Positions 25,051 through 27,063 of a stretch of 45,420 nucleotides of DNA are shown in pieces. A model generated the notes under the pieces. It saw only the letters and a program-made list of their open reading frames with translations, was not told the DNA's origin and made no database searches. Position 1 is the stretch's first letter. Each line of letters begins with the position of its first letter. Source of the stretch: Pseudomonadota bacterium (GTDB lineage Bacteria; Desulfobacterota; Desulfobulbia; Desulfobulbales; Desulfocapsaceae); assembly GCA_018821985.1 (NCBI GenBank), contig JAHJKP010000030.1, positions 1 to 45,420 of the forward strand, in the 5' to 3' direction. The position numbers were made by a program, and so were the translations under genes.

Positions 25051-27063
25051 ATGGGAATATTTTCGAAATGGCATGACCCTGAACACGATGATGATACTGT
25101 CTCCTCTGACATGGAAAAACTGCACGACACAGTGCTGCGCGCCAATATGCCACCCCGGATTGAAAAGGCGGCATTACGGGAAATTGAAAAACTTGTAAAG
25201 ACCAACACCTCGGCCACCGAATACACGATCGGCAGTAATTATATCGAATATCTTGCAAGCCTGCCGTGGAATACCTTCACCGAGGATAATCTTGACATTG
25301 ACCGCGCCCAGAAGATTCTCGATGAGGATCATTATGGATTGCATGATATAAAGGAACGTATCCTGGAATACCTGGCCGTCCGTATCCTCAAATTATCATG
25401 CCGCCACAATGTACTTCTGGCCGATGATGATGAAACAGCACGAAGCAATCTGGAGCATGTTCTCTCACGGGAGGGCTATATTGTTTCCTGCGCTGCCGGA
25501 GGTGATGAGGCGATCTCCCTTCTGGAGAAAAAACGTTTCGATCTCGTGGTGACGGATCTGAAGATGAAAGGTGCCGATGGGTTGGAGGTACTGGAAAAAG
25601 CCAAGGCCATGGATCCTTCCACCGAGGTTATCATTGTCACCGGCTATGCCACTACCCCGACCGCAGTCGAGGCCATGCAGAAGGGCTCCTTCCATTTTCT
25701 TGCCAAGCCCTTGCAGCTTGATGAGCTCCGTGAAACGAGCAAAAAGGCCCTGGCAAAAAAGAAAACAGAGCTGAGCGCAAAGGGGCCGATTCTCTGTTTT
25801 GTCGGCCCTCCGGGAACAGGGAAGACATCCCTGCAGCGATCCATTGCCAGGTGCCTGGGCCGGAAGTTCATCCGCATATCCCTGGCGGGGATGAAAGATG
25901 AGGCGGAGATTCGCGGCCATCGACGCAGCTATGTCGGAGCCCTGCCCGGCCGCATTATCCAGGAGATCCGCCGGGCCGGATCCCGTAATCCTCTGGTCAT
26001 GCTCGACGAGATAGACAAAATCGGACAGGATTTCAAGGGGGATCCGGCATCCGCCCTGCTCGAGGTACTCGACCATACCCAGAACAGCCACTTCATCGAC
26101 AATTACCTTGACCTGCCCTTTGACCTGTCACGGGTCATGTTCATTGCCACTGCCAATACCATTGACCCGATTCCCCCGGCGCTCCTTGACCGGCTGGAGC
26201 TTCTCCATCTCTCCGGCTATACTGAGGAGGAAAAAGAAAAGATCGCCTTCGACTATCTGATCCCGCGTCAGATTGAGGAGGCGGGTCTGTCCGGGCATTC
26301 ACTGACATTCACCCCGGAAGCGGTGCGGAAGATCGTTCGTGAGTATACGCGGGAAGCAGGATTAAGAAATATTCAACGGCAGCTTGCTGCTGTCTGCCGT
26401 AAGCTGGCGAGGGAGATCGTGCTCCACGATCAAGAAATAAAAAAGATAGAGATTACCGGGGAACTGGTTGAAAAATACCTTGGTCCGCGCCGCTATTTCT
26501 TTGAACTTGCAGATGATACCGAAAGAATTGGTGTCGCCACCGGCTTGGCCTTGACCGAGGCTGGAGGACAGATCCTTTTCATCGAGGCAACAATCATGAA
26601 AGGGAAAGAGACCCTAATCCTCACCGGCTCACTGGGGGAGGTGATGAAGGAGTCTGCCCAGGCGGCATTGAGTTATATCCGTAGCAACGCCGCCTTATTC
26701 CATATCAACGATGATTTTTTTGATGGCCATGACATTCACATTCATATTCCTGCAGGCGCGGTCCCCAAGGATGGTCCTTCCGCAGGCCTTACCATTGCCA
26801 TAGCCCTGCTTTCACTGCTGACCAGAAGGCCTGTGCGCAGAGATGTTGCCTTGACGGGTGAACTGACTTTGAGCGGCCGGGTGCTGCCGGTGAGCGGGAT
26901 ACGCGATAAAATCCTTGCCGCCCGCCGGGCAGGCGTGAAAACCGTCATCCTTCCCCTGTTGAACACGGCCGATTTGAAGGAGATTCCGGAAGAGATCTTA
27001 CAGGACATGAAGGTTGTGACCACGAACAACATCAGCAAGGTCATTGATCTGGCATTACGCTGA
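25051..27063 (+). CDS. Lon-type AAA+ protease with internal response-regulator receiver domain, lacking the N substrate domain
   Basis: This 670-residue protein has a short helical segment homologous to the Lon linker just before the ATPase (about 30-112; [35 protein letters not shown]). An inserted, complete receiver (about 118-235) follows, with acidic residues in ADDDE, phospho-acceptor Asp169 (VVTDLKMKGADG), Thr197 (VTGYA) and Lys219 (AKPL). After that come the Lon AAA+ module (Walker A GPPGTGKT, 252-259; VMLDEIDKI) and S16 protease with Ser577 (DGPSAG) and Lys620 (GIRDKILAA). All catalytic residues are kept. The receiver sits exactly where canonical Lon at 7847 has the short [16 protein letters not shown] connection. 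The N-terminal substrate domain is absent. ATG 25051 is preferred (GAGG 5 bases upstream); GTG 24967 would add 28 residues. Phosphorylation probably gates the ATPase, which makes it a two-component-controlled protease. Confidence 0.93.
   Translation: MGIFSKWHDPEHDDDTVSSDMEKLHDTVLRANMPPRIEKAALREIEKLVKTNTSATEYTIGSNYIEYLASLPWNTFTEDNLDIDRAQKILDEDHYGLHDIKERILEYLAVRILKLSCRHNVLLADDDETARSNLEHVLSREGYIVSCAAGGDEAISLLEKKRFDLVVTDLKMKGADGLEVLEKAKAMDPSTEVIIVTGYATTPTAVEAMQKGSFHFLAKPLQLDELRETSKKALAKKKTELSAKGPILCFVGPPGTGKTSLQRSIARCLGRKFIRISLAGMKDEAEIRGHRRSYVGALPGRIIQEIRRAGSRNPLVMLDEIDKIGQDFKGDPASALLEVLDHTQNSHFIDNYLDLPFDLSRVMFIATANTIDPIPPALLDRLELLHLSGYTEEEKEKIAFDYLIPRQIEEAGLSGHSLTFTPEAVRKIVREYTREAGLRNIQRQLAAVCRKLAREIVLHDQEIKKIEITGELVEKYLGPRRYFFELADDTERIGVATGLALTEAGGQILFIEATIMKGKETLILTGSLGEVMKESAQAALSYIRSNAALFHINDDFFDGHDIHIHIPAGAVPKDGPSAGLTIAIALLSLLTRRPVRRDVALTGELTLSGRVLPVSGIRDKILAARRAGVKTVILPLLNTADLKEIPEEILQDMKVVTTNNISKVIDLALR

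Follow-up and report, generated by a model that had tools for sequence, protein, structure and literature searches.

Can the activity of a protease be switched directly by phosphorylation of a receiver domain built into its own chain? The question is raised by REC-Lon, encoded on the forward strand of the DNA stretch analysed here (the window, 45,420 nucleotides), in which a response-regulator receiver (REC) is combined with a Lon protease. Placing the receiver in the protease itself would give an environmental signal about the shortest possible path to protein destruction, and a stress signal may switch this destruction on directly through REC-Lon. On balance we consider it probable that a two-component system has REC-Lon as its proteolytic output and that phosphorylation of D169 switches the protease via the AAA+ ring. 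The gene comprises the following features.

25051–27063, + strand: REC-Lon, 670 aa, a natural Lon without N domain and with an inserted receiver
25087–25398, + strand: pre-ATPase helical segment, the Lon three-helix region (residues 13–116; phmmer match to 3m6a 7–104; model helices 13–30, 35–49, 56–69, 83–93 and 98–116)
25402–25770, + strand: inserted receiver domain (residues 118–240; Pfam, invariance of D125/D169/K219, and pLDDT)
25555–25557, + strand: codon of the predicted phospho-acceptor D169, within the inserted receiver
25717–25779, + strand: REC alpha5 (residues 223–243; model secondary structure, one long helix up to the first AAA strand, 247–251)
25780–26433, + strand: AAA+ module and lid (residues 244–461; Walker A K258, Walker B D319/E320, R381, R439, pore-loop Y294)
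26452–27060, + strand: S16 protease domain (residues 468–670; Ser577 codon 26779–26781, Lys620 codon 26908–26910)

Pfam assigned Response_reg to residues 121–229 (2.3e-27), AAA to 248–383 (3.3e-24), Lon_lid to 409–461 and Lon_C to 468–669 (3.8e-83), and no Lon N-domain family was present among the 11 Pfam matches of REC-Lon. The NCBIfam model of endopeptidase La (TIGR00763) scored 733.5 bits against a cut-off of 608. The phmmer alignment to Bacillus subtilis Lon (3m6a) is split at the receiver, with residues 18–115 matching 7–104 and residues 240–669 matching 103–530, which places REC between the helical segment and the ATPase. The host genome encodes two further Lon proteins, of which the first lies in the window and the second on contig C17; their matches skip the receiver, and the canonical Lon of the window (7667–10249) aligned to REC-Lon with a single gap, at REC. 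The start at 25051 agrees with the short N-termini of the orthologs, and a longer frame from GTG 24967 is open and unneeded. These data confirm that 25051–27063 encodes a Lon AAA+/protease core with a complete REC that follows the helical segment and precedes Walker A, and that the N domain is absent. An earlier note on this DNA had described the receiver as replacing a short link ahead of Walker A, which is borne out by the Pfam order and by both Lon alignments, and the canonical substrate-binding N domain as gone, in agreement with the missing Pfam match and with short N-termini across the homologs. Compared to canonical LonA proteins (B. subtilis 3m6a, E. coli 6u5z, Meiothermus MtaLon 7fd4), REC-Lon shares the AAA+ module, the lid and the Ser–Lys protease domain, but it has no N-terminal globular or long-helix domain and carries a receiver ahead of Walker A.

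A search for this domain architecture, proposed as a check in the earlier note, revealed that REC-Lon recurs as a family. From 81 loci, 80 usable genes were obtained (L076 is incomplete), corresponding to 79 distinct REC-Lons of 49–100% identity from at least two phyla. Invariant in 79/79 are D125, N133, D169, K219 and P220 of the receiver part as well as K258 (Walker), pore-loop Y294, D319, E320, N369, R381, R439, S577 and K620. Residue 197 is T in 71 homologs and S in 8, and residue 126 is D in 77 and E in 2. The hallmarks of a two-component receiver (acidic pocket, phospho-acceptor Asp, T/S, Lys) are present across the 79 homologs, and those of LonA (Walker A/B, sensor arginines, Ser–Lys dyad) in 79/79. 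The complete receiver with Asp169, Thr197 and Lys219, located in the translation where it had been reported, and the intact Walker A/B motifs and Ser577–Lys620 dyad are accordingly properties of the whole family, with T or S at position 197. The stretch of residues 60–300 measures 241 residues in 69 homologs and 242 in 10. Ahead of residue 1, the frame is open for fewer than 50 residues in 75 of the 79 homologs (79 to 136 in the remaining four), and absence of the N domain is thus a property of the family. The architecture is confirmed not to be due to chance or to an assembly accident. The same conservation bears on a reading in which REC leaves proteolysis ungated and instead serves structure or assembly, or takes up phosphate from the kinase as a sink. 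A structural role would not need D125, D169 and K219 to be kept in 79/79, and a phosphate sink would not need an intact protease; we regard this reading as distinctly unlikely.

In genome samples, where a contiguous match over about residues 20–670 was taken as REC-Lon, the protein was found in at least 34 of the 297 genomes sampled from the phylum, in 37 of 116 genomes of the order (E 1e-190; same-genus copies 89% and 88% identical) and in 24 of 198 genomes from the phylum to which a Thermodesulfovibrionia MAG belongs, the 25th match there being a canonical Lon. None was found among 58 genomes, a small sample, in the phylum of a Betaproteobacterial MAG (E 1e-180), whereas Thioalkalivibrio and Dechloromonas are named in a 2011 paper (PMC3333781). 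A contig scan provided at least seven titled REC-Lon loci (L073–L079) among 80 returned, e.g. from Desulfobacter vibrioformis and a Desulfocurvus MAG. Other arrangements of REC within Lon were sought in 14 inspected loci of the 80, i.e. these seven and seven long or odd matches (L086, L097, L116, L128, L133, L142, L149), and the latter proved to be Lons without a receiver insert. In one genome (G602), a second REC-Lon-like frame (C1, 75238–76698, partly in L196) lies about 7 kb from a full REC-Lon; it is 63% identical over residues 1–489, and its open frame of 494 aa lacks most of the protease domain. The Desulfobacter vibrioformis genome (L073, G297) holds six Lon-type matches, one of which is the REC-Lon.

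Structure prediction of the full chain, likewise suggested earlier, was performed with AlphaFold2 on a 46-row alignment of 7 REC-Lons (query included) and 39 canonical Lons. The model (mean pLDDT 86.4, pTM 0.80) is a monomer without error matrix, so that the relative placement of domains and the position of REC on the hexamer are beyond its reach. In this monomer model REC folds and alpha5 runs into AAA strand 1. The receiver is confident in its first two thirds (block means of 89–96 over residues 121–190), with lower confidence around residues 191–220 (block means of 73–90 over 191–230). Helix alpha5 is one long helix that ends three residues before the AAA strand (pLDDT 76–79 over 231–250). 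All 50 matches listed by a Foldseek search of the PDB with this model are Lon chains.

Control of an AAA+ protease by receiver phosphorylation is established for RssB/ClpXP and CpdR/ClpXP, where the receiver is a separate adaptor. REC-Lon differs in that the receiver lies within the protease chain, as given by both Pfam and the Lon alignment. Still, it might act as an adaptor that has been fused: phosphorylation would then select substrates for a ring that is always active, with unchanged ATPase, in the manner of RssB/ClpXP and in covalent form. Since the N-terminal globular and long-helix domains are absent, another substrate catcher would be needed, and REC adjoins the point where substrates would join. 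Conversely, alpha5 directly enters the AAA core in the model and the stretch 60–300 is of near-constant length in the 79 homologs, both of which suggest mechanical coupling over a loose tether. A fused adaptor is rather unlikely in our judgement, and direct phospho-gating of REC-Lon proteolysis is the most economical reading, likely but unproven. For MtaLon, the globular domain is reported to bind substrate, and a mutation at the entry gate of the long-helix domain to abolish casein binding (PMC10643698). With both domains absent from REC-Lon, REC or REC-bound proteins must govern entry.

The earlier note knew of no worked-out system of this kind. This holds for biochemistry, as a biochemical study of a REC-Lon protein was not found in the open-licence literature, covered mostly by titles and the beginnings of abstracts. 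It does not hold for the architecture and the activation proposal, which have been in print since 2011: according to Rajeev et al. (PMC3333781), DVU3303 of Desulfovibrio vulgaris Hildenborough is a response regulator with a Lon protease, and phosphorylation-dependent activity was proposed for it. The REC-Lon module has the arrangement described there for DVU3303–3305 and DVU3298–3302; in D. vulgaris it is stated to be induced by stress, and the regulator to control its own operon and the divergent one (targets of the regulator are listed in PMC4641369, 2015). DVU3303, DVU3304 and DVU3305 show pairwise cofitness >0.9 and are detrimental in chlorate, according to PMC10102598 (2023), which ties the protease to its kinase and sigma-54 regulator. 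The fitness pattern that DVU3303 has in common with kinase and regulator suggests that they act in the same direction, unless the insertions are polar; the cofitness could stem from polar transposon effects. Based on synteny and on the wording of these papers, REC-Lon probably belongs to the DVU3303-type family. Like REC-Lon, DVU3303 joins a receiver and a Lon core in one chain; its gene adjoins those of a kinase and a sigma-54 regulator as well as a membrane/UspA operon. Unlike in D. vulgaris, the REC-Lon gene of the host is separated from the closest pair of kinase and regulator, and two small proteins with a hairpin around the motif FAEAG are encoded divergently from it. In summary, the REC-Lon architecture and the basic phosphorylation proposal are already known; new here are the breadth of the family, the residue invariance, the module across phyla, a better candidate kinase and the FAEAG hairpin. 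The family is widespread, little studied, and was first noted in 2011. Its breadth and constant architecture, together with the genetic data from a sulfate reducer that is amenable to experiment, make the question directly testable.

The surroundings of REC-Lon in the window include the following features.

24232–24399, - strand: small protein 2 (55 aa) with FAEAG hairpin, Shine-Dalgarno AAGGAGG
24461–24625, - strand: small protein 1 (54 aa) with FAEAG hairpin, Shine-Dalgarno AGGAGG
24686–24701, - strand: sigma-54 -24/-12 type site TGGCATATATCTTGCT, a pattern match before the two small genes and divergent from REC-Lon
24766–24874, no strand assigned: TGTTGC/GCAACA half-sites at 24766–24771, 24847–24852 and 24869–24874, pattern matches and candidate sites of the module's sigma-54 regulator
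27292–28662, + strand: NtrC-type response regulator with DTFTDT at the GAFTGA-loop position, 48% identical to its best-scoring match
29298–29750, + strand: single-domain receiver (Pfam)
29763–31271, + strand: histidine kinase, a diverged relative of the module's partner kinase (best-scoring module member 36% identical) and second-choice candidate partner

Gene neighbourhoods were compared for the 58 loci, the window among them, with a gene call for REC-Lon (in 3 of 61, overlapping ORFs prevented it), from seven genes before to eight genes after REC-Lon and with simple longest-ORF choices as gene calls. A sigma-54 regulator cluster, loosely built and containing some other NtrC-type proteins, is found near REC-Lon in 41/58 loci, and a HAMP/HisKA kinase cluster in 33/58. 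TauE/SafE transporters occur in 27/58, a CitMHS/TrkA_C transporter in 11/58, double-Usp proteins in 17/58, Usp-like proteins in 12 and 10, and a small membrane protein in 16/58. In a distant REC-Lon subfamily (10 loci fetched, of 23 order genomes) kinase and regulator are both present in 7/10, and relatives of the transporters or Usp proteins recur at these loci. Synteny ties the REC-Lon family to the kinase, the sigma-54 regulator, the anion transporters and the Usp proteins, and the membership in a two-component module assumed from the window is supported by this recurrence. In the host, close orthologs of kinase and regulator are located on contig C22 (L213) and not beside REC-Lon, and the copies in the window are diverged. 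The C22 kinase, at 7529–9001 of L213, is 52% and the C22 regulator 69% identical to the best-scoring module members; the regulator has an intact GAFTGA loop, and TauE/SafE and Usp genes adjoin. The 27292 regulator, with DTFTDT for GAFTGA, may be unable to activate sigma-54 polymerase and is probably not the functional partner regulator.

The DNA upstream of REC-Lon offers a second link to the module. The sigma-54 pattern at 24686–24701 is the only match within the window, and the C22 operon also has one. Among 61 loci, such sites are divergent in 8, all close relatives, and forward in 1 other, where 0.54 would be expected on the two strands together. Within 400 bp ahead of REC-Lon, TGTTGC half-sites amount to 115 in 46 of the 61 loci against 12.7 expected from the remainder of the same loci, coding DNA included. 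We read them as candidate binding sites of the module's sigma-54 regulator. Inverted half-site pairs were detected in 6/61 loci (9 sites, a count of 18 referring to both strands), and one also precedes the C22 operon; none is present in the window, though half-sites are.

To identify the likely phosphodonor, contact helices of receivers and kinases were compared. REC alpha1 was taken as residues 128–141 of REC-Lon, and the comparison covered nine of the about 100 receiver matches of the host genome. Mean identity of this helix in the window REC is 0.49 to 31 kinase-adjacent sigma-54 regulators, 0.50 to the C22 regulator, 0.38 to other sigma-54 regulators and 0.16 to the receivers of cluster c8. 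For the other receivers of the window, values of 0.14 (27292), 0.21 (29298) and 0.14 (18957) were obtained, and five further receivers of the host genome gave a mean of 0.27 (best, 0.43). A set of 56 REC-Lon receivers, from which the window's own REC was excluded and compared separately, behaved similarly, with 0.53 to the 31 kinase-adjacent regulators, 0.57 to the C22 regulator, 0.42 to 15 other sigma-54 regulators, 0.19 to the c8 receivers and 0.24–0.29 to the three other receivers of the window. In alpha1, a REC-Lon receiver is no closer to the regulator receiver of its own locus than to those of other loci (0.54 vs 0.53). In a REC tree, which likewise excludes the window REC, the REC-Lon receivers require 4 changes and are intermixed with the receivers of sigma-54 regulators; its 121 columns are too few for dating the REC/Lon fusion. 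On the kinase side, comparison of the DHp helix to 34 module kinases resulted in 0.75 for the C22 kinase, 0.56 for 29763, 0.41 for 17303 and 0.37 for 22362. As C22 is ahead in both comparisons, its kinase is the first choice as candidate phosphodonor. The kinases at 17303 and 29766, which the earlier note had favoured for phosphotransfer, are probably not the best partners, given that the C22 kinase and regulator are closer in DHp and alpha1; from helix identity, the C22 kinase is probably the better candidate, followed by 29763 and then 17303. As to the protein at 22362–24035, its 557 aa comprise GAF-GAF-PAS-HisKA without a HATPase domain in Pfam, i.e. a kinase minus the ATP-binding part.

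These comparisons also bear on the possibility that REC-Lon is an accessory Lon copy with the receiver of an unrelated pathway in a coincidental neighbourhood. The two other Lon proteins of the genome and the divergence of the window's own kinase and regulator would fit such a copy. As the synteny repeats in two sampled phyla and in both subfamilies, and as the similar alpha1 helix and the upstream half-sites link REC-Lon to the module, we consider it very improbable.

Taking together the order of the domains, the conservation of the active sites, the recurrence of family and module and the similarity of the REC helix, we infer the following course of phospho-gating. A membrane histidine kinase of one family would phosphorylate two receivers with a largely common contact helix. 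The first, that of the sigma-54 (NtrC-type) regulator, would turn on the anion transporters (TauE/SafE, CitMHS), the Usp proteins and the small FAEAG proteins; the second would be the one inside REC-Lon. Phosphorylation of D169 would act through the alpha4-beta5-alpha5 face of REC and the long alpha5 helix on the AAA+ ring and would switch the protease, most likely from off to on, with the REC crown substituting for the lost N domain in the control of substrate entry. The direction of the switch is left open by Xanthomonas citri Lon, which is deactivated by phosphorylation of Ser654 (PMC5784255). Activity is set by phosphorylation there as proposed here for REC-Lon; unlike in REC-Lon, the site is a serine, and a receiver is not mentioned in the abstract of that report.

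The two small ORFs upstream look like real genes behind the sigma-54 site, with good ribosome sites and a common, conserved 34-residue hairpin of TPR-like character around FAEAG. As a plain pattern, FAEAG gave 60 matches in 29 of the 61 REC-Lon loci (1.16 Mb) against a single one in 73 canonical-Lon control loci (1.08 Mb). A profile, trained on the tested loci and compared to controls from other lineages, detected 84 copies in 37/61 REC-Lon loci, with 24 loci having none, and nothing better than E 2.4 in the canonical-Lon controls. Of these copies, 77 are on the strand opposite to REC-Lon and 68 are within 6 kb upstream. At E up to 0.01 the host genome has five matches (two of them weak), 2 at REC-Lon and 3 on C22 near the module pair. 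Small FAEAG ORFs (≤100 open residues) are present in 20/34 loci with a module-type kinase and in 13/27 without. The hairpin family includes tiny proteins, Usp-like proteins and a few receiver proteins (24232–24625 and L213–L232), and no fitting family model was found in Pfam or NCBIfam: 13/59 copies matched TPR_4 weakly (best E 0.0022), and the best NCBIfam match of the small proteins in the window is EIIA-LAC (E 0.0039, 17.4 bits vs a cut-off of 137).

That FAEAG is specific to REC-Lon, and hence its degron, was rejected as an established claim, as the two are not associated in the order sample (14 genomes with both, 23 with REC-Lon alone, 29 with the motif alone and 50 with neither; Fisher p 1.0). 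In that sample FAEAG accompanies all 14 REC-Lons of ≥55% identity, the host's own included, and 0/23 of those of ≤54%. The phylum sample gave both in 21, REC-Lon only in 13, the motif only in 16 and neither in 247 genomes (p 7e-14, uncorrected for relatedness). In 19 stretches from REC-Lon-negative genomes, the profile matched a called gene in 16, and of these 16 stretches, 14 also match the sigma-54 regulator cluster and at least 8 contain a kinase of the module type; three REC-Lon-negative stretches carry the motif on receiver proteins. Occurring beside the same kind of kinase and regulator without REC-Lon, the motif marks the module more than the protease. We tentatively consider, as an unlikely reading, that the hairpin of the tiny proteins (about 55 to 95 residues) and of Usp-like N-termini serves as a docking tag or adaptor for the phosphorylated REC crown. 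REC-Lon would then be a kinase-switched protease with its own, mostly divergently encoded clientele, recognised by the REC crown in place of the lost N domain. If true, one kinase would drive both the transcription and the proteolytic fate of the FAEAG proteins. The FAEAG hairpin proteins represent a first concrete list of candidate REC-Lon substrates or adaptors.

Two further regions of the window deserve mention. At 19448–22297, one ORF combines a TorD-like chaperone domain (Nitrate_red_del 54–178) with a molybdopterin oxidoreductase; its best NCBIfam match is PhsA, well under the cut-off of that model. At 31276–36380, two tandem PPDK/PEP-synthase-like proteins are encoded, the first of which shows PPDK_N and PEP-utilizers alone in Pfam. 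Relatives of these proteins (cluster c12) are found near REC-Lon in 5/58 loci including the window, and also in L233.
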